The position numbers and the translations under genes are program-made. The notes under the pieces are model-generated. The model was given only the letters and a program-made list of their open reading frames with translations. It did not search any database and was not told where the DNA came from. From an uncultured Deferribacteres bacterium (GTDB lineage: Bacteria; Zhuqueibacterota; JdFR-76; DREG01), in assembly GCA_913009825.1 (NCBI GenBank), contig CAJVYQ010000026.1:1-64000 (forward strand): 64,000 nucleotides of DNA. Reading direction: 5' to 3'. How positions within the stretch are numbered: the first letter of the stretch is position 1; each line of letters begins with the position of its first letter. Below, one piece after another: positions 13,472 through 31,626 of this stretch.

Positions 13472-13695
13472 TCGTACCGAATAAAAATATTCGATTGCAA
13501 AATTCTTTGCTTGGCATGGGCGCACAACTGCTGGCGCAACTCCGGCATTCGCAAACCGTCTCATCGCTCTGGGATCGTGCGAAAACCGTAAAAGAAATAA
13601 ACTCGTACGACAAATTTGTTTTAACTCTGGATTTTCTGTTCATGATGAATCTGGTCGAATATAAAGATGGACTCGTATTAAAGGCGCAGCCATGA
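13468..13695 (+). CDS. ABC-3C system middle component
   Basis: 75 aa. NSLLGMGAQLLAQLRHSQTV, SLWDRA and DKFVLTLDFLFMMNLVEY match the small winged-helix-like middle component (MC6-type) of ABC-three-component defence systems, which bridges ATPase and effector (family knowledge: ABC-3C as defined by Krishnan and colleagues). It overlaps the effector upstream (ATGATC at 13468) and the ATPase downstream (ATGA at 13692), so the three genes are translationally coupled. Intact. Confidence 0.8.
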   Translation: MIVPNKNIRLQNSLLGMGAQLLAQLRHSQTVSSLWDRAKTVKEINSYDKFVLTLDFLFMMNLVEYKDGLVLKAQP

Positions 13696-15446
13696 TCAAG
13701 GCCGTACGATGTGACAAATCCTCATTCAAAGAAATCCATTTTTCTCCAGGATTCAATGTTGTTCTGGCTGAACGCACGGAAGCATCGTCCGACAAAGATT
13801 CCAGGAACGGACTTGGCAAGTCGACGCTCATCGAGATTATCCATTTTTGCCTGGGGGCGGACGCCACACCCAACAAAGGATTACGTGTCCCGGAACTGGA
13901 AGACTGGACATTCTTTTTAGATTTGACCTTAAACAACAGAGACTTAACCGTTGCCCGAAATACAAAGAATTTTGGCCACGTTAAATTAGAGGGAGATTTT
14001 AGCACCTGGCCTGTGCAACCCGAATTTAATGAAAAAGAAAAAGCATTCGTTTTAAAAATTAAGGATTGGAATCTTTGTCTCGGTTATCTTTTCTTTGGTC
14101 TTGAACCGGAAATTGTCAAACAGCAGTATTCGCCCACCTTTCGCAGCCTGTTTTCCTATTTTGCCAGAAGGGGGACGGAAGGATTTGCAAACCCATTCGC
14201 TCACCATTCCCAACAAAAACCGTGGGACATCCAGGTCAACAACGCCTGGCTGCTCGGTTTGAACTGGGAGTATGCAGCGCAATTTCAAATCCTGAAGGAT
14301 AAAGAAAAGCTGCTCAAAGATTTGGGCAGAGCCGCAAAACAAGGCATACTGACCGGCTACCTGGGAAGCATCGGAGAACTGGAAGCCGAACGCACAACGT
14401 TGTCCGAGCAAATAGAAAAAAACGCCTCCCAGCTTAAAAGCTTCAAAGTCCATCCCCAGTATACGGATATTCAAAATGAAGCAAATATATTGACCGCACA
14501 GACTCATGCGATTGTGAATGAACAAACGATGAATAAACGCTTATTGGAACAATACCAAAACAGCATTACAGAGGAAAAAGATGTTCCGGTCTCTGATGTC
14601 GAACTGGTTTATACAAAAGCCGGCGTGGTCTTTTCCGATGTGGTGAAAAAGCGTCTTGAGGATGTTGTTGATTTCCATCAACAAATTGTCGGCAATCGAA
14701 AGTCCTATTTGCAGGATGAGATCAAGCGGCTGCAACGTGAGATTGAACAACAAAGCGCAACAATTAAAAATCTTGGGGACAAACGAGCCGGATTGCTGCA
14801 GATACTGCAAACACACGGCGCTCTTGACGAATATACAAAACTGAACCGGCGTCAGACAGATTTACAGCAGCAGTTGTCCGAGATTGAAAACCGTATAAAA
14901 AACCTCAAACAATTTGAAACCGGCATCAGCAACCTGAAAATTGAGCGGGAAGAACTGCGCCAAAAAGCCCGCCGGGATTTTGAGGAACGCCAACTCATCA
15001 CCGACAATGCCCGCCGACTTTTTAACGCCAACTCGGAATACCTTTATGCCGAGCCGGGTTCCCTGATCATTGACCTGACCGACACCGGCTATAAATTTGA
15101 CATCGACATAAAACGGGCGGGCAGCTTGGGCATCGGCTATATGAAGGTATTCTGCTATGACCTGATGCTCATCAAACTGCAAAAAGATAAATCGCTCTCC
15201 CCCGGACTCTTAATACACGACAGCACTATTTTTAACGGGGTTGATGAAAGGCAGGTGGCCAAGGCATTAGAATTGGCCATGTCGGAAACTGATAAGAATG
15301 GTTTTCAATATATCGTGACGTTGAATTCGGACCAGGCGCCGAGGGATGATTTTAGTGACGATGCTATGGCGCAGTTTGAGGATGGCATAAAAATAAAATT
15401 TACGGATGCGACGGATGAGGGGGGATTGTTGGGAGTTCGCTATTGA
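13692..15446 (+). CDS. ABC-3C system ATPase (DUF2326-type)
   Basis: 584 aa SMC/RecN-like ABC ATPase. Walker A is at residues 40-45 (GLGKST). A long Gln/Glu/Lys-rich coiled coil spans roughly residues 225-440. The C-terminal lobe carries LGIGYMKVFCYDLMLI and the D-loop/Walker B region LLIHDSTIFNGVDERQ (about 506-521), then IVTLNSDQAPRDDF. This arrangement is characteristic of the ATPase of ABC-three-component anti-phage systems, which senses and licenses the effector. The gene is intact even though its effector is broken. A second, truncated copy of the C-terminal lobe lies at 17083-17568. Confidence 0.88.
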   Translation: MIKAVRCDKSSFKEIHFSPGFNVVLAERTEASSDKDSRNGLGKSTLIEIIHFCLGADATPNKGLRVPELEDWTFFLDLTLNNRDLTVARNTKNFGHVKLEGDFSTWPVQPEFNEKEKAFVLKIKDWNLCLGYLFFGLEPEIVKQQYSPTFRSLFSYFARRGTEGFANPFAHHSQQKPWDIQVNNAWLLGLNWEYAAQFQILKDKEKLLKDLGRAAKQGILTGYLGSIGELEAERTTLSEQIEKNASQLKSFKVHPQYTDIQNEANILTAQTHAIVNEQTMNKRLLEQYQNSITEEKDVPVSDVELVYTKAGVVFSDVVKKRLEDVVDFHQQIVGNRKSYLQDEIKRLQREIEQQSATIKNLGDKRAGLLQILQTHGALDEYTKLNRRQTDLQQQLSEIENRIKNLKQFETGISNLKIEREELRQKARRDFEERQLITDNARRLFNANSEYLYAEPGSLIIDLTDTGYKFDIDIKRAGSLGIGYMKVFCYDLMLIKLQKDKSLSPGLLIHDSTIFNGVDERQVAKALELAMSETDKNGFQYIVTLNSDQAPRDDFSDDAMAQFEDGIKIKFTDATDEGGLLGVRY

Positions 15447-15464
15447 TTTTATTTGTATGGGAAA

Positions 15465-15719
15465 ATGAAAGAACGTAAATTACTACAAAAATTAATATCA
15501 GGATCCAAGAATGTTCGATTCTCCGAAGCAACGGCAGTTGCCAGGGCTTTTGGTTTTAAATTAGATCGGATTACAGGCAGCCATCATATTTTTATACATC
15601 CTGATTTACCGGAATTGATTAATTTGCAAAACGTAAACGGAAAAGCGAAACCATACCAGATAAAACAACTATTAAAAATAGTTGAGAAATATAATCTCCG
15701 GATGGAGGACGATAAATGA
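15465..15719 (+). CDS. hicA: HicA-family mRNA interferase toxin
   Basis: 84 aa from ATG 15465. The dsRBD-like HicA fold is seen in FGFKLDRITGSHHIFIHPDL, where the GSHH histidine is the catalytic residue, followed by INLQNVNGKAKPYQIKQLLK. HicA toxins cleave mRNA. Its stop overlaps the hicB start (ATGA at 15716), the usual toxin-first hicAB layout. It starts 18 bases after the ABC-3C ATPase stop, so it may be co-transcribed with that system. A TTG at 15453 would extend it by four residues. Confidence 0.9.
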   Translation: MKERKLLQKLISGSKNVRFSEATAVARAFGFKLDRITGSHHIFIHPDLPELINLQNVNGKAKPYQIKQLLKIVEKYNLRMEDDK

Positions 15720-15934
15720 AAGACTATCATATCAACATTTTCTACAGGGAAGAGGACGGAGGATATATTGCCGATATACCCGATTTAAGCCATTGTTCTG
15801 CCTTTGGCCAAACCCCGCAAGAAGCGCTTTCGGAGGTTCTGAAAGCGAAGGATGCCTGGATTGAATCAGCGCGTTCCAACGGAAAACCTGTTCCGGAGCC
15901 GCATTACCGCCCGGTTGTTTACCAGGTTGCTTGA
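15716..15934 (+). CDS. hicB: HicB-family antitoxin
   Basis: 72 aa, paired with hicA through an ATGA overlap. It has the HicB partial-RNase-H-like fold (YREEDGGYIADIPDLSHC and a GQTPQEAL helix) and no DNA-binding C-terminal domain, so autoregulation would need another factor. Near-identical copy at 12337-12555. After 15934 the two loci diverge at once. Confidence 0.9.
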   Translation: MKDYHINIFYREEDGGYIADIPDLSHCSAFGQTPQEALSEVLKAKDAWIESARSNGKPVPEPHYRPVVYQVA

Positions 15935-16144
15935 ACTTAAAAAAACGAGAAAGCGCGTCCGACAGGCCGCATAATGGGCAAAAGCAGGAGACATTATTTG
16001 AATACAAAGGGAAAAGACCGAAATAATTGACGACACGATTCAGGTTGACAATGTGAGATTCGAGCTAAGGACCGCATGGTTTTATGGGTGGGACATCAGA
16101 TCTTTAATAATTGAAAGGGATTATGGAGAATATTTTTTAACTAG
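15935..16144. other. Gene-free stretch before the second defence cassette
   Basis: No coding signal. Contains GCAGGAGACATTATTTGAATAC at about 15984, shared with 11919, and ends at the promoter at 16145. The upstream gene-free region of the nuclease (to 16280) otherwise holds nothing recognised. Confidence 0.4.
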
Positions 16145-16172
16145 TTGACATTTTTAAAAAACTTGTTATATT
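16145..16172 (+). promoter_or_regulatory. Second copy of the ABC-3C-type promoter
   Basis: TTGACA (16145-16150), 16-base spacer ending in AACTTGT, TATATT (16167-16172). Boxes and spacer are almost identical to 12627-12654, although the genes that follow differ. The nuclease start is 109 bases downstream, leaving a longer leader than at the first copy. Confidence 0.65.
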
Positions 16173-16280
16173 AAATGCAAGCAATATTGAAAAAGAGGTT
16201 TTATCGTCCCTTATCTTCAATTTAAGCGGTTCCTCTCCAGGTATTAATTGTGTGGGTATAATTAAAATTGAAAGATTTCT

Positions 16281-16697
16281 ATGTACTCATTAGAAATACA
16301 ACTTGTTGAAGATTTCAAAAACAACCTGCTTCCACTAGATCATCCGTTTAGAATAACCGAATTAGCAGATGAATTTAATTATTTGAACGGCAGGGTTGAT
16401 GTTATTGCTAAATCTGAAGAGGGTTTATTGATTGCATTTGAAGCCAAGTTAAAAAAGTGGAGAATCGCTTTAAATCAGGCGTATCGTAATTCATCATTCG
16501 CCCATCTTTCCTATGTTGTTTTACCCACTGACAGTGCAACGAACGCCTTGAAGAATTACAATGAATTCCTGAAACGGGGCGTAGGTCTATGTTCTGTCAA
16601 CTCTGAAGGAATTAAAATTGAAATTAATGCTAAAAAAAATAAACCGTTGCAACCCTGGTTAACTGATTCCGCATTTAATTTTATCGCGAGCGCTTAA
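16281..16697 (+). CDS. PD-(D/E)XK-type nuclease domain protein
   Basis: 138 aa. The catalytic pattern of a restriction-endonuclease-like fold is visible: GRVDVIA (Asp) followed by LIAFEAKLKKW (E-x-K) about 17 residues later, then QAYRNSSFAHLSYVVLP, which resembles the conserved helix and strand after the core. A single-domain nuclease; partner and target unknown. It is followed after one base by a kinase-like gene, then by the remnant of an ABC-3C ATPase, and is served by an ABC-3C-type promoter. It may be an alternative effector of a degraded second system, or a foreign cassette that replaced it. Confidence 0.65.
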   Translation: MYSLEIQLVEDFKNNLLPLDHPFRITELADEFNYLNGRVDVIAKSEEGLLIAFEAKLKKWRIALNQAYRNSSFAHLSYVVLPTDSATNALKNYNEFLKRGVGLCSVNSEGIKIEINAKKNKPLQPWLTDSAFNFIASA

Positions 16698-16698
16698 T

Positions 16699-17082
16699 AT
16701 GTCCGATGAGCCAGAACTTGAAAGTATCGCTTTAGAATTTGCCATTAAGAAAAACTTGAACGTTATAAAATTTGCCGGAAAAGGGGCATTTAAAGAAACC
16801 TATTGGTCAAATCGTATTCTTTCTCAATTCAAAGAAGAACCGGGGAAAGCCTGGGCTGGATTATCGTGGCGGCATTATCTAAGCTGGTTTGGCAAAACTG
16901 AAAGGGAAATATCAAATGGTAATCCAATCAAAACTGTAAAAGATTGGTTAAAAAATGCTGAGACAAACAGGCTGATGTTGGAAGATGAAGAAATCCTGTT
17001 GGAAGAACCGCGGAATAATGGTTCATGGCTAAGACCCTGGCGGCAGGCCATGGCAAAGTTTTCTAAATTTTATGACGTGTAA
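16699..17082 (+). CDS. Kinase glycine-loop fragment joined to an unknown domain
   Basis: 127 aa, starting one base after the nuclease stop. Residues 1-35 look like the start of a Ser/Thr protein kinase (SIALEFAIKKNLNVIKFAGK, then GAFKETY as the glycine-rich ATP loop), but no catalytic HRD or DFG follows. Residues 36-127 (WAGLSWRHYLSWFGK, SWLRPWRQAMAKFSKFYDV) belong to something I do not recognise. The simplest reading is an internal deletion that fused a kinase N-terminus to the end of another gene. Function should not be assumed. Confidence 0.4.
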   Translation: MSDEPELESIALEFAIKKNLNVIKFAGKGAFKETYWSNRILSQFKEEPGKAWAGLSWRHYLSWFGKTEREISNGNPIKTVKDWLKNAETNRLMLEDEEILLEEPRNNGSWLRPWRQAMAKFSKFYDV

Positions 17083-17568
17083 CAAAAAGCGCACAGATGT
17101 TTTAATGAACGACAAACTATAACAGACAAGGAAAGACAGATTTTAAATCAGAATTTCGAAAACCTTTGTAATGAGCCGAGCCGGCTGATTGTTTCACTGA
17201 GCGAACCCGGCTATCAATTTCATATCGAAATTAAGCGGACCCGCAGTTTGGGCATTGGTTACATGAAAGTGTTCTGCTATGACCTTATGCTTGTCAATCT
17301 GCAAAAAAATAAACCGTTCTCACCTGATGTCTTAATTCAAGACAGCAACATTTTTAACGGGGTTGATGAGCGGCAGGTGGCAAAAGCGCTGGAACTGGCT
17401 ATAAAAGAATCTGATGAAAACGGCTTTCAATATATTGTGACGTTGAATTCGGATCAGGTGCCGCGAAATGATTTTAGTGAGGATGCTATGGCGCAGTTTG
17501 AGGATGCTATAAAAGTGAAATTTACAGATGCGATGGATGATGGTGGATTGTTGGGGATACGATTTTAA
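17083..17568 (+). pseudogene. Second ABC-3C ATPase, C-terminal remnant
   Basis: An open frame of about 160 codons that matches only the C-terminal lobe of the ATPase at 13692-15446: CFNERQTITD, NEPSRLIVSLSEPGYQFHIE, LGIGYMKVFCYDLMLV, FNGVDERQVAKALELA and the same terminal GGLLGIRF. Walker A and the coiled coil are missing. The two differ at many silent and amino acid positions, so this is a diverged paralogue, not a recent duplicate. The homology starts right at the stop codon of the kinase-like gene. Internal starts exist (TTG 17248), but a functional product is unlikely. Confidence 0.8.
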
Positions 17569-17830: not shown

Positions 17831-18970
17831 ATGAAAAGTTTTAGAGTAGCATTTTTGTCCATTTTAATTTTGCCTATTTTAATAACCTGTTCAACTAAGC
17901 AATATGAGACAATAAAAATTGGCGCCATCCTTCCTTTGACAGGAGATGCAGCCTCTTATGGGAGAAGTCTTCAGAACGGGGTCGAAGTAGCTGTGAATGA
18001 AATTAATAATAATGGTGGAATAAATAATAAAAAAATTCTTGTAATCTATGAAGATACTAAAGCACTTCCCGCTACAGGAGTTTCTGCATTCCGAAAACTT
18101 GTTGATGTTGATAAAGTAAAAATTGTAATCGGTGCGGCAACTAGTTCAGTTGCTTTAGCTGTTGCACCAATTGCGGAAGAAAAAAAAATAATTTTTCTAA
18201 CTCCTTTGGCAAGCGCACCCGCAATTTCAAAAGCAGGGGACTACATTTTTAGAAATGTGCCTTCAGATAATTTTGGCGGGAAAATAGCCGCTAATTTTGC
18301 AATAGTTACAGAAAAATTTAAAACATTAGCTATTCTTTATATTAATAATGATTTCGGTGTAGGCCTTCGCGAAGCTTTCCAAAATGAGGTGAATAGATTA
18401 GGAGGCAATGTGGTTATAATTGAGTCATTTACTCAAGGAACTACAGATTTTAGGACTCAACTTACTAAAATTGGTTCTGTTCGACCTAAACCTGAAGCTG
18501 TGTTTGTAGTTTCTTATAAAGAAGCAGCATATATCTTTCTACAAGCAAAGCAGCTTAACTTGGATTTTCATTTCATTGGAACGGGATTGCTCGAAGATCC
18601 AGATATAATTAAAATAGCAGGAAAAGCGTCAGAAGGAGTTTTTTTTACTCAACTTCCTTATGATCCTTCATCAACCGAAGAAGTTGTTCAGAATTATTTA
18701 GGAAATTTTAAAGAAAAATTTAACAAAGAACCAGATATTATTTCTGCTTATGGTTATGATGGAATTAAAGTTCTGGCTTCTGCTATGGGAAAAAGTGATC
18801 TGTCTACTGAAAATATTAAAATGCATTTATACGAGATTAAGAATTTTAATGGAGTAACCGGGCTGATAACAATAGACAAGAACGGAGATGTTATTCAACC
18901 TATGGGCATAAAAATTATAAAAGATGGCAAATTTAATTGGTATTTAAAACAGCAAAACATAAAAGATTAG
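17831..18970 (+). CDS. livK: Branched-chain amino acid ABC transporter substrate-binding lipoprotein
   Basis: 379 aa. Signal peptide with lipobox LITC (lipidated Cys about residue 21), so a lipoprotein. The mature part is a type I periplasmic-binding fold of the Leu/Ile/Val family: KIGAILPLTGDAASYG, EINNNGGINNKK and IGAATSSVALAVAPIAEE (substrate-binding Ser/Thr region). Delivers leucine, isoleucine, valine or a related ligand to LivHMGF. Preceded by GAAGGAGTTCGAAC, a strong ribosome binding site. The DNA is markedly AT-rich compared with livM, livG and livF. Separated from livH by three unrelated genes. Confidence 0.9.
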   Translation: MKSFRVAFLSILILPILITCSTKQYETIKIGAILPLTGDAASYGRSLQNGVEVAVNEINNNGGINNKKILVIYEDTKALPATGVSAFRKLVDVDKVKIVIGAATSSVALAVAPIAEEKKIIFLTPLASAPAISKAGDYIFRNVPSDNFGGKIAANFAIVTEKFKTLAILYINNDFGVGLREAFQNEVNRLGGNVVIIESFTQGTTDFRTQLTKIGSVRPKPEAVFVVSYKEAAYIFLQAKQLNLDFHFIGTGLLEDPDIIKIAGKASEGVFFTQLPYDPSSTEEVVQNYLGNFKEKFNKEPDIISAYGYDGIKVLASAMGKSDLSTENIKMHLYEIKNFNGVTGLITIDKNGDVIQPMGIKIIKDGKFNWYLKQQNIKD

Positions 18971-19061: not shown

Positions 19062-19226
19062 ATGGGACAGGCTTTACTCCATATAACAAAAGTCTTTGAT
19101 CAAATTGAAAAGAATAGTAAATCTAAAAAGCTTTTCAATTTGAAAAACAAAAAAAAGGATTTTAAAAAACGTGAATCAATTTCTAAAATAAATTCCATAA
19201 AGCAAAATGTAAAAATTAACGAATAG
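19062..19226 (+). CDS. Small Lys-rich peptide upstream of a prenyl synthase
   Basis: 54 aa: starts MGQALLHITKVFDQIEK, then a strongly basic stretch (KKLFNLKNKKKDFKKRE), and ends KQNVKINE. ATG 19062 has a GAGGT ribosome binding site ten bases upstream, and the stop is 11 bases before the GTG of the prenyl synthase gene, so the two are co-transcribed and probably coupled. No signal peptide, no Trp and no Cys, so it does not look like a ComX-type prenylated pheromone. Family not recognised. The codon use is as AT-rich as its neighbours. Supported by RBS, spacing and context only. Confidence 0.5.
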   Translation: MGQALLHITKVFDQIEKNSKSKKLFNLKNKKKDFKKRESISKINSIKQNVKINE

Positions 19227-19237
19227 GCAGGGTTATA

Positions 19238-20239
19238 GTGTCTAAAGTAGAAAAACTTCTAAAAGAGACGAATCCTATTGTAAAAGACTGGATGGAAAAA
19301 TATTTTTCAAATGATGAATTTTTGCCTTTAAAATCTCAAATTGAATATGCAATAAACTACACTGATCCAGATTATGACAGGGCGTTGCTTGTAAGGTTGG
19401 GATGTGAATTGATGGGTGGTAACTTGAAACAAGCACTTCCTGGGATGGTGGCCTGGGAGCTTTTCAACATCTCCCTTTTAGTAACTGATGATTTTTTTGA
19501 TCAACGTAAAGGCTTTAGAATGGGGCAAGAACCCATATACAAAAAATGGAATGATAAGGCTTCAGTTTCATTGGGTTTTTATTTTGACAGTCTTGCATAT
19601 GAGATAATAATAAATTCATATAAAAATAATAAACAAATAAATCCTATAGACACCGTAGATGTTTTAACTTGGTCGGCTAAGTGGCAATACTTTAGTCAAG
19701 ATCAGGAGGAGCAACTGACAAAACGTAACCTGGATGAAATTACACTCGAAGACTATTTTGATTTAATTAAAAACGCAACCGCCGTTGGTACAGCTGGCGC
19801 AATAGAATTAGGAGGCATTCTTGGTGGTGCAAGCCAAGCGCAAAGATATCAATTTAGAGAATTCGGTTTAGATTTTGGCTGTCTTCTTCAAATCAGAGAC
19901 GACCTTATTGATTATATTGATAATGAGTCAATTACCCAAAAAAGCCCTTTTAATGATTTACTAATGAAAAGAAAACGTCTTCCCTTTCTTGTTTGCTATT
20001 GGAAAGGCAATAAAACAGAAAAAAAGAAACTTTTAGAATTAATTCAAAAACCAACAATAGAAGATAATGAAATTTCTTTTGTCCTAGACATTCTCACATC
20101 CCATAAAGTAAAATATGAAATAAGACGTCTGGTTGAAAAAATTCACAAACGAGCTGTTTATCGACTTGAAACATTACCGGGAAATAATGACATAAAAAGT
20201 TATGTATTGGAATGGTTATCGATTATGTCTAGTATTTAA
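19238..20239 (+). CDS. Class I polyprenyl synthase-like protein
   Basis: 333 aa all-alpha isoprenoid synthase. Both Asp-rich metal-binding motifs are intact: DDFFD at residues 84-88 (first, followed by QRKGFR) and DDLID at 221-225 (second). It resembles chain-elongating prenyl diphosphate synthases and the related ComQ prenyltransferases more than squalene/phytoene synthases. No isoprenoid genes are near; instead it sits between a small peptide gene and a membrane protein inside a liv operon, so a dedicated role (peptide or lipid prenylation) is possible but unproven. GTG start at 19238, chosen by the short gap to the upstream gene. Confidence 0.75.
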   Translation: MSKVEKLLKETNPIVKDWMEKYFSNDEFLPLKSQIEYAINYTDPDYDRALLVRLGCELMGGNLKQALPGMVAWELFNISLLVTDDFFDQRKGFRMGQEPIYKKWNDKASVSLGFYFDSLAYEIIINSYKNNKQINPIDTVDVLTWSAKWQYFSQDQEEQLTKRNLDEITLEDYFDLIKNATAVGTAGAIELGGILGGASQAQRYQFREFGLDFGCLLQIRDDLIDYIDNESITQKSPFNDLLMKRKRLPFLVCYWKGNKTEKKKLLELIQKPTIEDNEISFVLDILTSHKVKYEIRRLVEKIHKRAVYRLETLPGNNDIKSYVLEWLSIMSSI

Positions 20240-20283
20240 AGTATTAAGAATAGAAACTCTCTTTAGATTTAGGAGGCTTTTCT

Positions 20284-21900
20284 TTGAAAATTTATGATAT
20301 TAAGAACAAGTTAAAAAGACCTGTTTGGTATATTCTGTTTTTCCTTGTCACATTTTCAACCTTGATTATAACATTTATTGTTTTTTTAAATATTACAAAA
20401 CTAAGTTCTAAAGCCCTATTGGAATTCTTGAGTGATTATTGGGGAATTCCACTCGTATACATTTTATCGATAGCCCTGTTTTTTTATGTTTCAACCCTAG
20501 TTGAATCCTCTTTCATAATACGCAGAAGTTTTAACCAATTGATTTTTGTTTTAGATGAATTTATAACATTACTCGTTGCTTTAGTACTCGCAGGAATGGT
20601 GTGGTTATTATTAGGGCCGAAATTTTCTACTTATTTATCATTACCCAAGTCATCTCCAACTGACACAACAAAAACAATTAGTCTATTTAAATACAATAAA
20701 GCAGATAGCGTAAATCTCATAACTGAAGACAGATTGAGAGCTTTTGAGAAAAGACAAGAACATTTTTTTCAAAGCGTTGAGGAGAGACAAAAACGCGCTT
20801 TTCAAAGCTTTGATAGTAGTGAAGGAAGAATGCTCAGCTTAATGGAAGTATTAGCTGCTGTATTAACCATAGCTGGTGCAATACTTGTTTTTATTGTGCG
20901 CCGAAAAGTAAATGATGTTGAAAAATTAACTGGTCAGATAGAAAGCCTAAACCAATCCCTAATAATATCGACAGAGCTTATTCTTCTCAGATTGCCCGAT
21001 TTTACTGAAACGCAGCATATTCCCATGGAAGTAGTGAAAATGTTGCGGGAAATTGAAAGGCTTGTTTTTCGTAATTCTGAAATACAAAACACATTGGAGA
21101 GACAGGGAAATGGATCGAGGTTAGATCTTGCTATGGGGGTATATTTATTTTCACAAAAAGATAATATATGTAGAAAATATTTTGCAAAGGTAAAAAAGAA
21201 TCAGCTTGCAGAAATGAATATCAGGATGTGTGCTAGAATTAGGTTAGGAATTGCTTATCGTCAATATAAAAATTATGTACAATCTAAAAATGAGTTTGAA
21301 GATATTATAAATGAAACATCCATTGGCGAATATTTTAATGAGGTCGCTCAAATTGGAAAATCAATCACATTAATTGCAATGGGTAAAACGGAAGATGCTT
21401 ATAATGAATTGAAATCACTTTGGAATAACAAAGAGATTAGTAGTGGTACTAAAGTTTTCGCTGGTTTTTACTATCTACGTTCATTAATAAAAGAAAAAAG
21501 TAGTTATGAAATAATTAGGGGAGAAGAAGAAAAGCTAAAAGAAATAAACGAATTCATGGAAGAGAAAATTATCAAAATTAGAGAGTCTTCAACTGGAGGA
21601 GAAATTAAAGGAATAAATTTGATTGGCCCATTTCATAGTGATAAAGCGATTCAAGCAAATTTTTTTGAAGCCATTGGAATTTCATATTTTATATTTTGGA
21701 AGCGTAATCTTAATAATAAGCAAAAGCGCTATAAGAATATATGCAGGATTGCTTTTAATAATGCAAAAAATGCAGTACAAGAGTTAAAGAAGCAGCGTTA
21801 TGATCTTCAAGTTACAGTTTTATCTGAAGAGGAATTGAGGGATGTCTCAGTTGAACAATTCGAAAATGAAATAGATAAATTTAAAATACTTGTTAGCTAA
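20284..21900 (+). CDS. Four-TM membrane protein with a long cytoplasmic helical domain
   Basis: 538 aa. Start is TTG 20284, fixed by AGGAGG at 20271-20276. Four hydrophobic segments: about residues 15-38, 50-72, 80-106 (WLLLGPKF end) and 186-208. Between the third and fourth is a charged helical linker (FEKRQEHFFQSVEERQKR). Residues 210-538 are soluble and helical, with short repeats suggestive of TPR-like packing (RLGIAYRQYKNYVQSKNEF). No kinase or nuclease motif seen. Family not recognised. It follows the prenyl synthase by 44 bases and precedes livH by 25, so it belongs to the same transcript. Confidence 0.55.
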   Translation: MKIYDIKNKLKRPVWYILFFLVTFSTLIITFIVFLNITKLSSKALLEFLSDYWGIPLVYILSIALFFYVSTLVESSFIIRRSFNQLIFVLDEFITLLVALVLAGMVWLLLGPKFSTYLSLPKSSPTDTTKTISLFKYNKADSVNLITEDRLRAFEKRQEHFFQSVEERQKRAFQSFDSSEGRMLSLMEVLAAVLTIAGAILVFIVRRKVNDVEKLTGQIESLNQSLIISTELILLRLPDFTETQHIPMEVVKMLREIERLVFRNSEIQNTLERQGNGSRLDLAMGVYLFSQKDNICRKYFAKVKKNQLAEMNIRMCARIRLGIAYRQYKNYVQSKNEFEDIINETSIGEYFNEVAQIGKSITLIAMGKTEDAYNELKSLWNNKEISSGTKVFAGFYYLRSLIKEKSSYEIIRGEEEKLKEINEFMEEKIIKIRESSTGGEIKGINLIGPFHSDKAIQANFFEAIGISYFIFWKRNLNNKQKRYKNICRIAFNNAKNAVQELKKQRYDLQVTVLSEEELRDVSVEQFENEIDKFKILVS

Positions 21901-21925: not shown

Positions 21926-22804
21926 ATGTTAAAACAATTATTATTAAATGGCCTCATCTCTGGGAGTATTTATGCCTTAGTCGCTCTAGGATTTGCAATA
22001 ATATACAGAACAGTGAGGTTTTTTCATTTCGCACATGCCATTGTTTTCACCTCAGGACCTTACTTCACGTTTTTGTTTAAAAATGTTTTTTTAATCCCCA
22101 TCTATTTATCCATTCCGCTTGCGATAATTTCTTCAACATTTCTCGGTTGCCTTCTTGATATATCTATCTATCGTCCACTCAGACAGAAAAAAGCGTCATC
22201 AATGATCCTGCTTTTAGCTTCGTTAGGTATTTATATTGTTTTACAAAATCTACTTTCGATGGTATTTGGAGATGATACAAAATCTATCTGCATTTCAAAA
22301 ATACTTGAAGGAATAAATATTTTTGGCGCACGTATAACTTCTATCCAAATTGCTATTATTTGTATTACCATTATTCTTTTATTATCTATAGTGATATGGA
22401 TGAAAAAGACAAAAATGGGCAAACTTGTACGAACTGTTTCAAATGATGCTGAACTTGCAGATATTTCAGGGATAGATAGTGATAAAGTCATATTAAGTAC
22501 ATTTGCTATAGGCTCTTCTTTAGCAAGTGTTGCAGGTATTTTAGTTGCATTTGATGTCGCCATGACACCTACGATGGGATTCGATGCTCTAATGATGGGG
22601 GTTATTGCTGTGATAATAGGCGGAATTGGAAGTATATCAGGAATTGCACTTGGCGCCTTGTTGCTTGGATTAGCACAGAATCTTGGAGTTTGGTATATTA
22701 ATTCTCAGTGGCAGGATGCCATTGCCTTTGCCATCATGCTCATCTTTCTGCTTTTCCGCCCCCAGGGCTTTTTCGGCAAACCGCTAAAAAAAGCGGAAAT
22801 TTGA
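21926..22804 (+). CDS. livH: Branched-chain amino acid ABC transporter permease LivH
   Basis: 292 aa inner-membrane permease with about eight TM segments. Family marks: LISGSIYALVALGFAIIYRT at the start, FFHFAHAIVF, the cytoplasmic EAA-like loop (SNDAELADISGID) that docks on the ATPases, and VIIGGIGSISGIALGALLLG near the end. Works with LivM, LivG, LivF and LivK. Composition is uneven: the first ~780 bases are AT-rich like the upstream genes, while the last ~95 (from about 22708, QDAIAFAIMLIFLLFRPQGF) are GC-rich like livM. This suggests a recombination breakpoint inside the gene. Confidence 0.9.
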   Translation: MLKQLLLNGLISGSIYALVALGFAIIYRTVRFFHFAHAIVFTSGPYFTFLFKNVFLIPIYLSIPLAIISSTFLGCLLDISIYRPLRQKKASSMILLLASLGIYIVLQNLLSMVFGDDTKSICISKILEGINIFGARITSIQIAIICITIILLLSIVIWMKKTKMGKLVRTVSNDAELADISGIDSDKVILSTFAIGSSLASVAGILVAFDVAMTPTMGFDALMMGVIAVIIGGIGSISGIALGALLLGLAQNLGVWYINSQWQDAIAFAIMLIFLLFRPQGFFGKPLKKAEI

Positions 22805-22897: not shown

Positions 22898-23269
22898 TTG
22901 AGTTATCGTAATTTAGAAATTTGGAAATTAGCCAGGGATGTTTCTGTAATAGTTCATAAAATGACTTTGCAAAAACTTCCAAAATTTGAGATGTATGAAG
23001 AAGGTGGTCAGATAAGAAGATCGAGTAAATCGGTAAAATCGACTATTGTAGAGGGATATGGCAGAAGAAGATATGTAATGGATTATATTAAATTTCTAAT
23101 CTATGCTCAAGCTTCAAATGATGAAACGATTGATCATCTGGAAACTCTATACGAAACCGGTTCATTGAAAGATAAAGAACTATTTAACATACTGCATAAA
23201 AAAATAGATACATTAGGAAAAATGATCAATAAATTTATTCAATCAATAGAAAATGCCGGAAACAGGTAA
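22898..23269 (+). CDS. Four-helix-bundle protein, S23/23S rRNA intervening-sequence family
   Basis: 123 aa. [20 protein letters not shown], the [20 protein letters not shown] core and [19 protein letters not shown] match the S23/IVP family (diversity-generating accessory proteins and rRNA intervening-sequence proteins share the fold). TTG start at 22898 with GGAGAA upstream. Here it lies between livH and livM, not in an rRNA gene, flanked by short CCAGTAAC repeats as such free-standing copies often are. Biological role unknown; behaves as a small mobile or passenger gene. Confidence 0.85.
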
Positions 23270-23318: not shown

Positions 23319-24194
23319 ATGGATTATTTTTTACACATATTGATTCTAATAAACATCTACATCATCATTGCGATTTCGTTGAACCTAATTTCCGGCTACA
23401 CCGGTTTGCTGTCCCTGGCCCATGCCGCATTCTATGGCATCGGCGCTTATGCCACGGCGCTGATGTGGCTGTATCTAAAAACCGGGTTTTGGGTCAATAT
23501 CTGGGTGGGCATCCTGGTTTCGGCCATCCTGGGCATCATTATCGCCTACCCCTCCCTGCGCATTTATGATGATTATTTCGCCATTGCCACTTTTGGCTTT
23601 CAAATGATCGTGTTCAGCATTTTCAACAACTGGGTGGGATTCACCAAAGGGCCGCTGGGCATTCCCGGTATTCCTTCCCCTTCTATTTTTGGGTGGGAGG
23701 TTTCTTCCCATTGGGCCTATTTGCTGTTGTCCGGTTTCTTCGCTGTTTTAGTTTACTGGCTAACGCACCGGCTGGTCAATTCGCCTTTTGGCTTGGCACT
23801 CAAAGGTATTCGGGAGGATGAGATTTTCACCAAAGCCTCGGGAAAAAATATTACCAGATACAAGATGCTCGTTTTCATCATCGGCGGCTCCATGGCCTCC
23901 ATCGCCGGGGCGCTGTATGCGCATTATATTTCCTACATCGATCCCACCAGTTTTACCATCAACGAGTCGATTTTCATGATCTCCATCGTCATCATCGGCG
24001 GCATGGCCAGTCTGCGGGGTTCGGTGCTGGGAGCGGTTGTTCTGGTAATCCTGCCGGAGGCGCTGCGTTTTATCGGCCTGCCCAACGCCGTGGCCGCCAA
24101 CCTGCGGCAGATATTTTACGGCGCCCTGCTGGTGCTGTTTATGATGTACCGGCCGCGGGGGTTTGTGGGGGAGTATGAGCTTACTAAGAAGTAA
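23319..24194 (+). CDS. livM: Branched-chain amino acid ABC transporter permease LivM
   Basis: 291 aa inner-membrane permease. Marks: ISLNLISGYTGLLSLAHAAF, LRIYDDYFAIATFGFQMI, the docking loop ALKGIREDEIFTKASGKN, and IIGGMASLRGSVLGAVVLVI near the C-terminus. GC-rich, in contrast to livK and most of livH. The last 206 bases (23989-24194) recur at 26438-26640 and, in part, at 27355-27478. The present copy ends in ELTKK, while both downstream copies end in QMQK, so the tail now fused to livM is a different allele from the displaced ones. Confidence 0.92.
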   Translation: MDYFLHILILINIYIIIAISLNLISGYTGLLSLAHAAFYGIGAYATALMWLYLKTGFWVNIWVGILVSAILGIIIAYPSLRIYDDYFAIATFGFQMIVFSIFNNWVGFTKGPLGIPGIPSPSIFGWEVSSHWAYLLLSGFFAVLVYWLTHRLVNSPFGLALKGIREDEIFTKASGKNITRYKMLVFIIGGSMASIAGALYAHYISYIDPTSFTINESIFMISIVIIGGMASLRGSVLGAVVLVILPEALRFIGLPNAVAANLRQIFYGALLVLFMMYRPRGFVGEYELTKK

Positions 24195-25808: not shown

Positions 25809-26156
25809 ATGGAAACTTTGCTTAATCATCGTGCATCAAAGAAAAAAATAAAACCAATCCCTGTTGATAAGAACATTACTATTCTGAATTTAGGTCATGT
25901 TAAATACATTTTTAAATCACCTTTTCCTGTTAATATTGTGTTGGAAGATAATGTTTATATTGCCTTCTCCTACGATTTGAATCTGTTTGGTTATGGAGAG
26001 AATGAAGATGAAGCGGTACGAGATCTTTGTGAAAGTATAATTGAGCATTATGAACACCTAAAATCTAACCGGGAAAATCTTGGTTATCTTTTGAAACGTG
26101 ACTGGGAATTTCTAACTCGATTGATTATTGAGTTAGAGGAGGCTACTTGCAATTAA
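25809..26156 (+). CDS. Putative HicB-like antitoxin
   Basis: 115 aa. The middle resembles a HicB-type half domain (NIVLEDNVYIAFSYDLNLFG, YGENEDEAVRDLCESIIEHY); the rest is not recognised. Overlaps the next gene by ten bases and precedes it, so an antitoxin-first pair is likely. Together with the HicA-like gene it forms the cargo just upstream of the second livM 3' end. Assignment rests mainly on pairing. Confidence 0.5.
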   Translation: METLLNHRASKKKIKPIPVDKNITILNLGHVKYIFKSPFPVNIVLEDNVYIAFSYDLNLFGYGENEDEAVRDLCESIIEHYEHLKSNRENLGYLLKRDWEFLTRLIIELEEATCN

Positions 26157-26425
26157 AGAAAAGAGAAATGCGCAGTGTTTTCTCGAAGTTAAAAATGCGG
26201 ATAGCTCACACCCATCATAAAATTGCTTACTTTGAATATAAGGGAACCGAATATCTTAAAACTCGCGTCTCGCATGGACAAGGTGATATTCCAAAACCGG
26301 TAATTGATCGTATTCGCAAACAACTATTTTTGAATCGATCTCAATTTAAGGATTTGGTAAAATGTCCACTGGGATATGATGAATTTGTTGTAATTTTAAA
26401 GGGAAAAAACATTATCTCGAAATAA
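26147..26425 (+). CDS. Putative HicA-like toxin
   Basis: 92 aa. IAHTHHKIAYFEYKGTEYLK, TRVSHGQGDIP and RKQLFLNRSQFKDLVKCPL fit a HicA-like toxin group with H-x-HH and SHG motifs (a dsRBD-like RNA-cleaving fold in the family). TTG start at 26147 is supported by GAGGAGGCT just upstream; ATG 26168 is an alternative. Its stop at 26425 is only about a dozen bases from the start of the duplicated livM end, so the cargo boundary is tight. Confidence 0.6.
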   Translation: MQLKKREMRSVFSKLKMRIAHTHHKIAYFEYKGTEYLKTRVSHGQGDIPKPVIDRIRKQLFLNRSQFKDLVKCPLGYDEFVVILKGKNIISK

Positions 26426-26437
26426 TGAGTGTAGTGT

Positions 26438-26640
26438 TCATCATCGGCGGCATGGCCAGTCTGCGGGGTTCGGTGCTGGGAGCGGTTGTTCTGGTCATTC
26501 TGCCGGAACTGCTGCGCTTCATCGGCCTGCCCAACGCCGTGGCCGCCAACCTGCGGCAGATATTTTACGGCGCCCTGCTGGTGCTGTTTATGATGTACCG
26601 GCCGCGGGGGTTTGTGGGAGAGTACCAGATGCAAAAGTAA
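26438..26640 (+). pseudogene. Duplicated livM 3' end, copy 2
   Basis: 203 bases matching the end of livM, from the codons for IIGGMASLRG to the stop, with a handful of mostly silent differences from 23989-24194 and a different tail (GEYQMQK). A short in-frame start exists upstream (26425), but a 70-residue piece of a permease has no expected function. Best read as a displaced gene end. Confidence 0.85.
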
Positions 26641-26718
26641 GGGGATTATTTGCTTGATTAAAGGTCTTTATGTGGATATATTTGATTGTAAAGACGAAAT
26701 TGAGCGGGAGGAATTGTG

Positions 26719-26934
26719 ATGATTACACGAGAAGTCGTCATCGAAGAAATTCGGAAAATACCCGAATCGAATCTTGAAGAGCTTTTTAAGATTATCAGGG
26801 ATTTTGAATCTGCCGAAAAAATCAAGTCCGGGCCTGGCCTTATGTCCAAATTAAGAGATATTAAAATTTCTGCCGCCGATGATTTTTCACAGACTGCGGA
26901 TTTATACAAATCCGGAGATGATAATAATGAATAG
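26719..26934 (+). CDS. VapB-like antitoxin of a VapBC-type pair
   Basis: 71 aa from ATG 26719 (GGGAGGAA ribosome binding site). ITREVVIEEIRKIPESNLEE is like the N-terminal region of small antitoxins such as those with DUF2281-type folds; the C-terminal half is acidic and probably wraps the toxin. Overlaps the start of the PIN toxin gene by eight bases. Confidence 0.55.
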   Translation: MITREVVIEEIRKIPESNLEELFKIIRDFESAEKIKSGPGLMSKLRDIKISAADDFSQTADLYKSGDDNNE

Positions 26935-27330
26935 CGCTTTTATCGATACCGCATTTGTAGTGCCTTGATTAACCGGAATGATGTATACCATTCTCAAGCA
27001 ACAGAATTATCCAGGAAATACGAAAATAAACCAATGATTACGACAAACATTGTATTGCTGGAAATTGGGAATGCTTTGGCCCGAAATTACAAACGTGAAG
27101 CGGTACAGATTATCAAACCATTTAGGTCTTCCGATGAGGTGACGATTGTTGAATTGAATGCACTTGTTTTTAAAAAGGGATTTGAAATCTATGAACAGTA
27201 TGACGATAAAAGCTGGGGATTGGTAGACTGCATTTCGTTTGTCGTGATGCGAAATAATGATGTTACAGACGCACTAACATCTGATACTCATTTCGGGCAG
27301 GCGGGTTTCAATGTCTTGATGCAAAAATGA
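26927..27330 (+). pseudogene. VapC-type PIN-domain toxin, one-base frameshift
   Basis: Reading from ATG 26927 gives MNSAFIDTAFVV and then a stop. If one G is restored at about 26962, the frame continues ALINRNDVYHSQA to 27330, with the PIN acidic residues at FIDTAF, LLEIGNAL, WGLVDCISFVVM and TSDTHFGQAGF. So a normal ~134-aa VapC RNase has lost one base after codon 12. The antitoxin gene is intact. Either genuine inactivation or a read error. Confidence 0.75.
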
Positions 27331-27354
27331 TAATAACGAATCCATTTTCAAAAT

Positions 27355-27478
27355 CTTCATCGGCCTGCCCAACGCCGTGGCCGCCAACCTGCGGCAGATT
27401 TTTTACGGCGCCCTGCTGGTGCTGTTTATGATGTACCGGCCGCGGGGGTTTGTGGGGGAGTATCAGATGCAAAAGTAG
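27355..27478 (+). pseudogene. Duplicated livM 3' end, copy 3
   Basis: 124 bases, starting 25 bases after the VapC stop, matching livM from the codons for FIGLPNAVAANLRQ to the stop. Ends GEYQMQK like copy 2, with about four single-base differences from it. Shorter than copy 2 and with no start codon of its own. Confidence 0.85.
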
Positions 27479-27576
27479 CTGGTGGTTTTTGGCGCTCTGA
27501 TATTAACTTGCAAAATTAATTGTGATTTATACATTACAACACGATGACAAGGCAATAATTATTGGAGACAAAAGAT

Positions 27577-27765
27577 ATGAGAGATGTTAAAAACAAAGTT
27601 ATTAGCCTGGTTGAATCCTTGCCGGACAATGTCACATTGGATGATATTATGGCGGAACTGTATTTTAAACTCGAGGTTGATGCCGGTCTTGCGGAACTGG
27701 ATGAAGGAAGGGGCATACCACACAACAGGGTTAAAGAACGGATTGGAAAATGGCCAAAGAAATAA
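27577..27765 (+). CDS. Small antitoxin of a RelE/ParE-type pair
   Basis: 62 aa from ATG 27577 (GGAGA 9 bases upstream; a TTG at 27562 is less likely). VKNKVISLVESLPDNVTLDD, ELYFKLEVDAGLAELDEGRG and HNRVKERIGKW match short antitoxins that partner ParE/RelE toxins. Overlaps the toxin by 16 bases. Confidence 0.75.
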   Translation: MRDVKNKVISLVESLPDNVTLDDIMAELYFKLEVDAGLAELDEGRGIPHNRVKERIGKWPKK

Positions 27766-28043
27766 TCTGGTCGCCGCGGGCGGCGGAAAACCTTGAGGAC
27801 ATTTTCGGATATATCGCTAAAAATTCTGAACATTATGCCTCTATGGTCGCCAAAAGAATTCTTCAAATAATAGAAACAATACCTGAATTCCCCTACATGG
27901 GGCGAGTCGTCCCTGAATACAAAGATGACTCGCTAAGAGAACAATTTTATAAACACTATCGCATCGTATATAGAATTAAAGAAAAATCGATTGAGATTGT
28001 TGCTATCGTTCATGGCGCGCGGTTATTAAAAGATATCAGTTGA
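27750..28043 (+). CDS. RelE/ParE-family toxin
   Basis: 97 aa. IIWSPRAAENLEDIFGYIAK, IPEFPYMGRVVPEY, REQFYKHYRIVYRI and the HGARLL ending are standard for the ParE/RelE (plasmid stabilisation) fold. Residues cannot decide between gyrase poisoning and ribosome-dependent mRNA cleavage. Third TA module between livM and livG, and the first not followed by another livM end. Confidence 0.85.
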   Translation: MAKEIIWSPRAAENLEDIFGYIAKNSEHYASMVAKRILQIIETIPEFPYMGRVVPEYKDDSLREQFYKHYRIVYRIKEKSIEIVAIVHGARLLKDIS

Positions 28044-28065
28044 TTTGCACAAAAAAATAGATGAG

Positions 28066-28200
28066 TTGCTCGTAAAAAGTCATAGAATGTCATTGCGAGC
28101 GAAGCGAAGCAATCTGGATGTCGGCTAAAGTGCAGTTTTTTAAAGATCGCTTCCCCGATAATTCTGGGCTCCGCTCCTCGCGATAACCCCAAAAGATTTT
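28066..28200. repeat. Dispersed repeat fragments after the ParE-type toxin
   Basis: GATGAGTTGCTCGTAAAAAGTC at 28063 resembles the left end of the family D element at 63240-63362, and TGTCATTGCGAGCGAAGCGA at 28089 plus CTCCGCTCCTCGCGATAA near 28170 are common dispersed-repeat arms. The 28044-28290 gap holds nothing else recognisable. Confidence 0.45.
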
Positions 28201-28290
28201 ACTTGATTACATGACTATTGTTAAATATATTGTACCGTTCAATCAGATTGAACTTTTATAATTATTGAACAGACTAAAACAAAAAACAAG

Positions 28291-29337
28291 ATGCCTTACA
28301 GGACTATTTTAAATACATGCGTTGAACGCCTCGGGGAATTCCCGCCTGTTCAAAGCGTCTCTCCTGCCATTGTGAGTGATGCTGAACAGGTGGAAATTAT
28401 TATCGATAACGCAAAAATTATCTTTCGAACAGAAATAAAGGGAATTTTAAAACGGCCGCTCCCGTATCATTTGTTCGTTAAACGTGCTGAGAAAAGCGAA
28501 AGGCCTTTGCTTTTACTTGCCGAATATGTAAATGATTCAATTGCTTCGGATCTGAAAAAGCATGGCATTAATTTTATCGATTGTGCAGGAAATGCGTTCA
28601 TTCATGTTCCGGGCAAAGCATACCTGGAAATCCGGGGCAAGACAAATCCACGACAAAAAGAAAGACAAACATCAGCTCTTTTCCAACCAAAGGGTTTGCG
28701 GCTACTTTACATTTTGCTTGTAAAAAAGGAATCTTTAAATCAAACGGTTCGGCAACTTGCAAAAATCTCCGGTATTTCAACCGGACGTGTCGTTCAGATT
28801 TTAAAAGAACTGAGAGAGAAAGGATATATTTTTAAAAACAATTCCGGCCAGTTCCAATTTGCTAATACACAGAAATTGTTTGAACAATGGCTGGCAAACT
28901 ATGGAGACCGGCTCAGGCCAAAACTTGTACTGGAGAGTTTTAAAATCTTACCAACTCTGGTCGATAAAATTCCTTTTATGCTAAAAGATGCTTTTTCTGA
29001 TAGTCCTGCCGATTATGCCATTGGTGGAAGCCTGGGCGCCAATATTTTGACGAGTTACTATCGAGGCCACACAACGGAAATTTATGTGCGTCCGGCCATA
29101 CTGACCAGGTTGAAAGAAACTCTGAAATTAATGCCCGCACGGGAAACTGATGTAACCGTATTTAATTTATTCTCGCCGTATGTTATTTTTGAATCTGAGA
29201 AAACTGGTTTTTCTACGGCGCATCCGCTGTTCATTTATGCTGAATTATTGCACCAGGGCGGCAGCCGGGAACGTGAAACGGCACAAATAATTTATAACAC
29301 TTATCTTGAACAGATTTTTGCTAAAAATGGAACCTGA
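28291..29337 (+). CDS. AbiEi-family antitoxin (type IV TA)
   Basis: 348 aa. FIDCAGNAFIHVPGKAYLEI, QTVRQLAKISGISTGRVVQI (winged HTH) and LKELREKGYIFK are characteristic of a long AbiEi-type antitoxin. The C-terminal half (ADYAIGGSLGANILTSYYRG, TEIYVRP) is the antitoxin domain. It would repress the operon and counteract the nucleotidyltransferase toxin. Overlaps abiEii by 11 bases. Confidence 0.8.
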   Translation: MPYRTILNTCVERLGEFPPVQSVSPAIVSDAEQVEIIIDNAKIIFRTEIKGILKRPLPYHLFVKRAEKSERPLLLLAEYVNDSIASDLKKHGINFIDCAGNAFIHVPGKAYLEIRGKTNPRQKERQTSALFQPKGLRLLYILLVKKESLNQTVRQLAKISGISTGRVVQILKELREKGYIFKNNSGQFQFANTQKLFEQWLANYGDRLRPKLVLESFKILPTLVDKIPFMLKDAFSDSPADYAIGGSLGANILTSYYRGHTTEIYVRPAILTRLKETLKLMPARETDVTVFNLFSPYVIFESEKTGFSTAHPLFIYAELLHQGGSRERETAQIIYNTYLEQIFAKNGT

Positions 29338-30169: not shown

Positions 30170-30922
30170 ATGAGTGAATTTGAAATAAAAAATATATGCA
30201 AAACCTTTGACGGCATCCGGGCGGTCAATGACTTTTCTTTTGAATGGAAAGATCATAAAATCGTCGGCCTCATCGGTCCGAACGGCGCCGGAAAAACGAC
30301 GCTATTTAACATTATTACCGGATTTCTGCCGGCAGATTCAGGGCAATTTATTTTCAAAGATAAAGATATATTGCGTTCACCGGCGCATCGAATCGTTTAC
30401 AAAGGCATCGCCCGCACATTTCAGAATTTGCGGCTGCTTCGGCAAATCACAGTGCTGGAGAATATTTTGTTTTGCCGTCTCAACCAGGTTGGCGAGTCGC
30501 CGATATCGGCGTGGATTAAAAACAAAACGTATCGGGTTAGTCAGAAACAGAACCGGGAAAAGGCGGAGTCCATTCTTGAATTCATCGGCCTTGCGGATAA
30601 ACGCCATGACCTGGCGGAAGCATTATCTTACGGACAACAAAAATTATTGTCGCTGGGCTGCTGCCTGGCGACGGAAGCGGAATATTTGCTCCTGGACGAA
30701 CCTGTCTCCGGCGTCAATCCGGCGATGATTGAAAAAATAATGGAATTGCTCAAATCCCTGGCCGGGCAAGGCCGGAAAATATTGTTGATTGAACATAACA
30801 TCCAGGCCGTCAGGGAAATTTGCGAGCGGTTGATCGTAATGGATGAGGGCAAAAAAATCGCCGAAGGTAAACCTGACCGGGTTTTAAAAAGAGAAGAAAT
30901 CATCGAGGCTTATCTGGATTGA
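30170..30922 (+). CDS. livG: Branched-chain amino acid ABC transporter ATP-binding protein LivG
   Basis: 250 aa cytoplasmic ATPase. Walker A GLIGPNGAGKTT, signature ALSYGQQKLLSLGCC, Walker B YLLLDEPVSGVNP and the LIEHN H-loop are intact. LivG-type rather than LivF-type by the inserted helix region around residues 100-135. Energises LivHM together with LivF, whose start lies two bases after the LivG stop. Must now be reached by transcription through the TA modules, or use a local promoter (TTGTTATATTTT at 30150 is a candidate -10 region). Confidence 0.93.
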   Translation: MSEFEIKNICKTFDGIRAVNDFSFEWKDHKIVGLIGPNGAGKTTLFNIITGFLPADSGQFIFKDKDILRSPAHRIVYKGIARTFQNLRLLRQITVLENILFCRLNQVGESPISAWIKNKTYRVSQKQNREKAESILEFIGLADKRHDLAEALSYGQQKLLSLGCCLATEAEYLLLDEPVSGVNPAMIEKIMELLKSLAGQGRKILLIEHNIQAVREICERLIVMDEGKKIAEGKPDRVLKREEIIEAYLD

Positions 30923-30924
30923 AT

Positions 30925-31626
30925 ATGCTGGAAATACGTCACCTCAAAACAGGATACGGGAAAAAATTAATCATCGACGATGTGTCCCTGGATTTGTGTG
31001 AGGGGGAAATAGTGGCTCTTATCGGCCACAACGGCGCCGGGAAATCTACTATTTTGAAATCGATTATCGGTGTGCTGCCGAAATGGAGCGGGGAAATTGT
31101 TTTTGAGGGAAATACACTTGATTCCAGGCCTCACCAAATCGTGCGCCGGGGTATCTCCATGATCCCGCAAGGCAGCCAGGTGTTCGATGAGATGACAGTG
31201 CAGGAAAATCTGGAAGTTGCTTCATTTATTTTCAAAGACAAAAAACCGGTGCGGCAGCGCTTTGAAGAAGTCTACCGGCAGTTCCCGCTTTTGCGGGAAC
31301 GCCGCAAACAATCCGCCGGTAAGCTCAGCGGCGGCGAGCAGCAGATGCTGGCACTGGGAATGGCGCTGATCCAACGCCCGAAATTACTTTTGATGGACGA
31401 ACCCTCTTTGGGACTTTCACCCGCCTATGTAAAACAAGCTTTTCAGATGATCAAAGACCTGAATGAAAGATACGGCATGTCCATTCTCATCGTTGAACAA
31501 AAGGTAAAAGAAGTTTTAAAATTCTCCAACCGCACCTATGTTTTGCGCCTGGGAAAAGTGGCGCTGACAGGAGACGCACGGGAAGTGTTGGATAAAGGGG
31601 AGTATAAAAAAATATTTCTAACCTGA
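30925..31626 (+). CDS. livF: Branched-chain amino acid ABC transporter ATP-binding protein LivF
   Basis: 233 aa ATPase, the usual LivF length. Walker A ALIGHNGAGKST, signature KLSGGEQQMLALGMA, Walker B LLLMDEPSLGLSP and LIVEQ are intact. Start chosen at ATG 30925; a TTG at 30919 overlapping the livG stop is possible. Last gene of the liv operon; no clear terminator between it and the convergent rhodanese remnant. Confidence 0.93.
   Translation: MLEIRHLKTGYGKKLIIDDVSLDLCEGEIVALIGHNGAGKSTILKSIIGVLPKWSGEIVFEGNTLDSRPHQIVRRGISMIPQGSQVFDEMTVQENLEVASFIFKDKKPVRQRFEEVYRQFPLLRERRKQSAGKLSGGEQQMLALGMALIQRPKLLLMDEPSLGLSPAYVKQAFQMIKDLNERYGMSILIVEQKVKEVLKFSNRTYVLRLGKVALTGDAREVLDKGEYKKIFLT

Follow-up and report, generated by a model that had tools for sequence, protein, structure and literature searches.

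A prenyl-synthase homologue and a membrane protein as one of several exchangeable cassettes beside the permease genes of liv-type importer operons

Why should a liv-type importer operon carry a prenyl-synthase homologue and a large membrane protein between its solute-binding protein (SBP) and its LivH permease? The question arises from a 64,000-nucleotide stretch of one contig (the window) in a 5.1-Mb draft genome, labelled G000. A sequence-only reading had singled out three closely spaced genes in an AT-rich block of the operon, and had likened them to the ComQ-ComX-ComP logic of prenyltransferase, peptide and membrane receptor. The three open reading frames lie where that reading put them, all on the + strand, with the SBP gene upstream and LivH downstream (Table 1). 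The block is indeed AT-rich (30-34% GC vs 43-48% further downstream) but is not confined to the trio, as the SBP and most of LivH also lie inside it. An RNA family search of the region gave no match, and promoter- and terminator-like sites occur at a frequency near the shuffled background. The surroundings look defence-like: upstream of the operon, the stretch 13692-17568 holds a DUF2326/ABC-3C-type protein and a copy of its C-terminal part (17248-17568), with a HicA/HicB pair between the two.

Table 1. Features of the liv-type locus, with positions in the window
Feature	Position	Strand	Basis or remark
liv/HAAT-type solute-binding lipoprotein (SBP, Peripla_BP_6)	17831..18970	+	PF13458, 202 bits; cassette-specific
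Lys-rich 54-aa frame, doubtful coding status	19062..19226	+	
Class I prenyl-synthase homologue, 333 aa, GTG start	19238..20239	+	PF00348, 100 bits
DYDR, residues 45-48, at the IPP-site KRxR position	19370..19381	+	alignment with housekeeping synthases
First Asp-rich motif DDFFD, residues 84-88	19487..19501	+	alignment
Second Asp-rich motif DDLID, residues 221-225	19898..19912	+	alignment
Membrane protein of 538 aa starting with TTG; helical TPR-like domain after four TM helices	20284..21900	+	hydropathy
LivH permease	21926..22804	+	identity to G062 switches at ~22.69 kb
LivM permease, conserved chassis	23319..24194	+	PF02653, 169 bits; 88% nt identity to G062
3'-terminal remnant of a second LivM	26438..26624	+	96.8% nt identity to G062 LivM
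Another short match, to the G062 contig at its LivM end	27356..27464	+	99% nt identity to L043 1-109
LivG ATPase, conserved chassis	30170..30922	+	54% identity to LivG of G048/G053
LivF ATPase, conserved chassis	30919..31626	+	53% identity to LivF of G048/G053

The assignment of the middle gene to the class I prenyl synthases, with both DDxxD motifs, is borne out, and these motifs are shared with ordinary trans-polyprenyl diphosphate synthases. Their GGKRxRP signature is absent, however, the window protein reading DPDYDRA, and RMGQEPIY stands in place of RRGxxTVH. Alignment with the housekeeping-type synthases of the phylum shows that the IPP-site Lys of GGKRxRP is changed to Asp45 and the first Arg is lost with Arg48 kept, that the second Arg of RRG is Met and the following His is Tyr101, and that the Lys of the KT pair is Ala180. 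The protein scores far under every curated NCBIfam synthase cut-off, and its top match in other genomes reaches ~101 bits. Two further synthase genes of G000, on C70 and C5, are presumably the housekeeping ones. In a small tree the window synthase falls outside the ordinary GGPP/octaprenyl clade, a result that leaves the idea of an unusual system standing on this point, although the placement is unsure because its end branch measures 10 substitutions per site (median 0.68). Two scans of genome contigs with the window synthase gave no match; the second is a weak negative, as it yielded a single pattern from an alignment with added rows of artificial variants intended to widen the search motifs. 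Viral contigs were also scanned with alignments containing artificial synthase variants. The small molecule that the enzyme would make or modify is perhaps an isoprenoid or an isoprenoid-modified compound. IDS-derived terpene synthases (PMC7484799) belong to the same isoprenyl-diphosphate-synthase fold family and likewise have altered IPP-site residues, but the Arg of KKxR is kept in the window synthase and the genomic context is different. Terpene synthase activity of that kind is possible for the window protein, the IPP-site changes being only suggestive.

The third gene also agrees with its first description as a protein of four TM helices and a helical C-terminus: hydropathy gives four hydrophobic segments, and residues 316-406 weakly match a TPR-type protein (E 5.9e-4), the sole homology signal; the family libraries otherwise gave no match. 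By sequence, no relative of this 538-aa protein was found in 388 genomes (where there was one weak TPR-type match), plasmids or viral contigs. AlphaFold single-sequence models of the synthase and of the membrane protein were unusable (mean pLDDT 41 and 39, respectively).

The peptide fared less well. The 54-aa frame is preceded by AGAGG and separated from the synthase by 11 nt; when the gap is shuffled, 0.9% of the copies contain a frame of at least 54 aa. Real gene segments have codon scores in the range of that of the 54-aa frame (0.093 bits/codon), yet frame +2 of the same DNA scores no worse (0.103), and the family libraries gave no match to the peptide above chance. In G115, the only other SBP/prenyl-synthase-like cassette found, the SBP stop overlaps the start of the synthase-like gene, and therefore no room is left for a peptide gene. 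The frame is not conserved, and its proposed part in the system finds no support; its coding status is doubtful, and we regard it as unsupported rather than disproved.

Membership of the ComQXP family was also considered and rejected, as none of the three defining features that we examined is present. The second Asp motif of ComQ is a pseudo-SARM of the form NDxxx or GDxxx (PMC5331326), whereas the window synthase has DDLID; the ComX precursor bears a Trp near its C-terminus (PMC4008528), whereas the 54-aa frame has none; and ComP joins a TM region to histidine-kinase and ATP-binding domains (PMC4008528), for which the 538-aa protein gives no family match. Common to both are a PF00348 enzyme, a membrane protein and varying specificity genes beside a more conserved part. 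ComQXP is without an importer chassis, which the window locus has, and the window locus resembles ComQXP in logic only. Of the earlier interpretation, the unusual cassette in a liv operon stands, and the ComQXP details and peptide component are not supported. The trio was also said to match no described system, and we found none in the family libraries or the open-access papers searched, nor any description in the open-access literature of an SBP-LivH slot of this kind.

The gene order is not unique to the window. We gathered related SBPs from the 388 genomes and examined 83 loci. LivH directly follows the SBP in 47 of them, the commonest arrangement in ordinary relatives, and one, G115, has LivH ~2 kb away. 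This genome belongs to another phylum, and its order of SBP, PF00348 protein (38.8 bits), TM protein, LivH and LivM is that of the window. The two synthase-like proteins are 21% identical over 300 columns (E 2e-7, in a single comparison) and have an ELFNIS stretch in common. In the G115 protein the GGK motif is gone and little of the first Asp motif remains (NIAFD), so prenyl-transferring activity may be absent; the second Asp motif is kept as NDLAD. Because the order recurs, the pairing of enzyme and membrane protein, for which a neighbourhood search had been suggested, is not accidental. The recurrence is visible through gene position only and not through the sequence of the 538-aa protein. 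The sample comprised four genomes in the phylum of G115 and three in that of G121, the only locus that a LivH search around G115 added.

Retrieval of the operon from phylum mates via LivH and SBP searches showed that the same slot holds other genes. It contains a 336-aa protein with two TM segments and a B12-radical SAM enzyme in G035, a 435-aa two-TM protein and a KamA-family radical SAM enzyme in G053, a 424-aa two-TM protein and an SDR in G048, and a 222-aa protein without family beside a 362-aa protein with about four TM segments in G080. The slot of G121, in another phylum, holds a 327-aa TM protein, with two SPASM-type radical SAM genes upstream of the SBP. A related but different layout occurs in G046, where LivM-LivG-LivF precede the SBP, and the SBP in turn precedes a methyltransferase-containing protein and one that is guanine-deaminase-like. 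The membrane proteins and enzymes of the phylum mates have no BLAST similarity to one another. Profile and BLAST comparisons likewise detected no similarity among the membrane proteins of different cassettes, so these perhaps do not have one common role. The SBPs of G000, G035, G053, G048 and G080 are mutually 31-42% identical, and the window SBP shares 28-42% identity with those at the same place in relatives. Across about eight loci, all in draft assemblies, each related genome thus has a different membrane protein, a different enzyme and a strongly diverged SBP, and LivM-LivG-LivF are conserved. The variable unit takes in the SBP besides the membrane protein and one or two enzymes, and the slot genes of relatives are non-homologous.

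The limits of the replaced part can be followed in closely related pairs. G048 and G053 are two species of one genus. Their nucleotide identity is 99.94% over 3345 bp extending from LivM as far as the next gene, a dehydrogenase, 92.7% in the DNA upstream and 89% in LivH. Across the SBP-TM-enzyme DNA there is no similarity: the SBPs are 36% identical, and the membrane proteins and the enzymes give no mutual BLAST match. The flanks of G080 are like those of these two genomes, and in this comparison identity rises at the first LivH codons. The 99.94% stretch between flanks of ~92% (L031/L032) could reflect recent transfer or assembly carry-over. The window and G062 share 95% amino-acid identity in LivM and 60% in LivH. 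Along LivH, nucleotide identity is 40-75% before ~22.69 kb and ~92% after it, a recombination-like breakpoint near the end of the AT-rich block. The G062 contig (L043) has a LivH without its 5' end, beside which a 506-aa frame that is transposase-like by inspection lies on the opposite strand. G115 and G121 are 80% identical in LivM and 40% in LivH (amino acids). Thus, in three backgrounds the downstream part is conserved and the upstream part replaced. The boundary falls at the beginning of LivH, within it or at its end, a pattern that recombination through conserved permease genes would be expected to leave. We consider cassette exchange well supported. The LivM remnants of the window and a duplicate of the LivH 5' end in G035 (L018 4319-4681) look like possible recombination scars. 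In G035 a PIN-like ORF accompanies this LivH fragment ahead of the complete LivH (L018 4319-5650), much like the scar of an earlier exchange.

Among SBPs of solved structure, 3td9 and 4gnr come closest; both bind branched-chain amino acids. In HAAT SBPs the ligand alpha-ammonium is paired with an acid, which is E226 in LivJ/LivK of E. coli. The corresponding column is acidic (Asp or Glu) in 75 of the 83 related SBPs vs two of seven cassette SBPs (Fisher p 5e-4; the G115 SBP, which is not acidic here, was counted among the 83 controls). It holds Gly in the window SBP and E, Q, P, I, Y and D in the others. At the positions where a hydroxyl would be expected to bind the carboxylate, cassette SBPs have Ser in 7/7 and Thr or Ser in 6/7 cases. 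With the ammonium-pairing acid mostly lost and the carboxylate hydroxyls mostly kept, many cassette pockets may therefore no longer be suited to plain alpha-amino acids.

We propose that the cassettes are exchangeable ligand-specificity modules on a conserved liv-type (HAAT) ABC importer, and that the ligand of each is made or modified by an enzyme of the same cassette. Beyond the exchange itself the proposal concerns function, which we infer, and we put it at an even chance. Like a LivKHMGF/HAAT importer, the window locus has SBP, LivH, LivM, LivG and LivF; it differs in that, at cassette loci, SBP and LivH are separated by at least two additional genes that are exchanged along with the SBP, and in the loss from most cassette SBPs of the acid typical of amino-acid binders. 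Each cassette would set the identity of one ligand: the enzyme would make or modify a private small molecule, the SBP would capture it in the periplasm, and LivHMGF, common to the cassettes, would import it. The membrane protein has a large soluble domain and might relay a signal or handle the ligand at the membrane, the whole forming a polymorphic signalling or retrieval system. Co-location and joint replacement suggest a common ligand for enzyme, SBP and membrane protein, and a catabolic role would be just as possible for the KamA- and deaminase-type enzymes. More tentatively, and with rather less than even confidence, the loci may form a new class of polymorphic recognition locus, in which a conserved importer is combined with swapped non-homologous modules (binding protein, signal-making enzyme and membrane transducer) and unrelated enzymes confer pherotype-like private small-molecule identities.

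The cassettes might instead be nutrient specialities, each SBP importing its own nutrient, the enzyme starting its breakdown and the membrane protein being an accessory, so that catabolic abilities are what is exchanged. Liv-type operons with catabolic enzymes are common, the conserved part here is an importer, and KamA, SDR and guanine-deaminase-like enzymes are present, as is a GcvT/LigM-like gene before LivH in G112 (named by sequence inspection only). We nevertheless find this account unlikely, since a prenyl-synthase homologue and B12- and SPASM-type radical SAM enzymes would be unusual first steps of breakdown, every SBP-LivH cassette encodes a membrane protein whose soluble domain is large, and no complete catabolic pathway adjoins the cassettes.

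Less probable still are conflict or anti-phage modules, with enzyme and membrane protein as sensor and effector and the hypervariability born of an arms race. Pairs of a signal synthase and a TM effector are known, and the enzyme and TM protein here are reminiscent of them; toxin-antitoxin and ABC-3C-type genes lie nearby in the window. Diversifying conflict systems with variable domains, one including a periplasmic-binding domain, have been described (PMC7159879) and resemble the cassettes in having a constant core with rapidly replaced parts. They differ in that we found no core genes in common and that the constant part in the window is an ABC importer with its own binding protein. Moreover, PADLOC models gave no convincing match to window proteins (best E 0.51), and no known effector domain was found. 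Chance insertion of unrelated genes into a decaying operon would fit the other insertions, namely a 23S-rRNA-IVP/four-helix-bundle ORF between LivH and LivM (22898-23269) and, in the LivM-LivG gap (25809-30124), PIN-domain and AbiEi/AbiEii-like toxin-antitoxin genes together with the LivM remnants. It is a very improbable account of the cassettes, which lie tightly packed, at the same place and on the same strand, in several genomes from different phyla, the SBP being replaced along with the insert and the window's gene order recurring in G115.

Were the ligand-module reading true, a polymorphic recognition system would be built on a common nutrient-importer design, each cassette would pair a binding protein with the enzyme for its ligand, and matched sets of enzyme, ligand and receptor would be at hand for study. 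Even if the ligands are nutrients, the loci are a clear case of non-homologous module exchange beside conserved permease genes, and two altered prenyl-synthase homologues are placed in a defined genomic context. The novelty lies in the locus architecture; if the nutrient reading is right, it would be a new variant of catabolic importer operons.

Two further loci bear on the extent of such cassettes. In G046 (L034/L045), 1074-aa and 618-aa proteins without family accompany the methyltransferase and guanine-deaminase-like genes after the SBP, perhaps a larger relative of the cassettes. In G294 (L052), Ser occupies the acid column of a related SBP, and the gene directly downstream is not LivH but a 419-aa unrecognised open frame.
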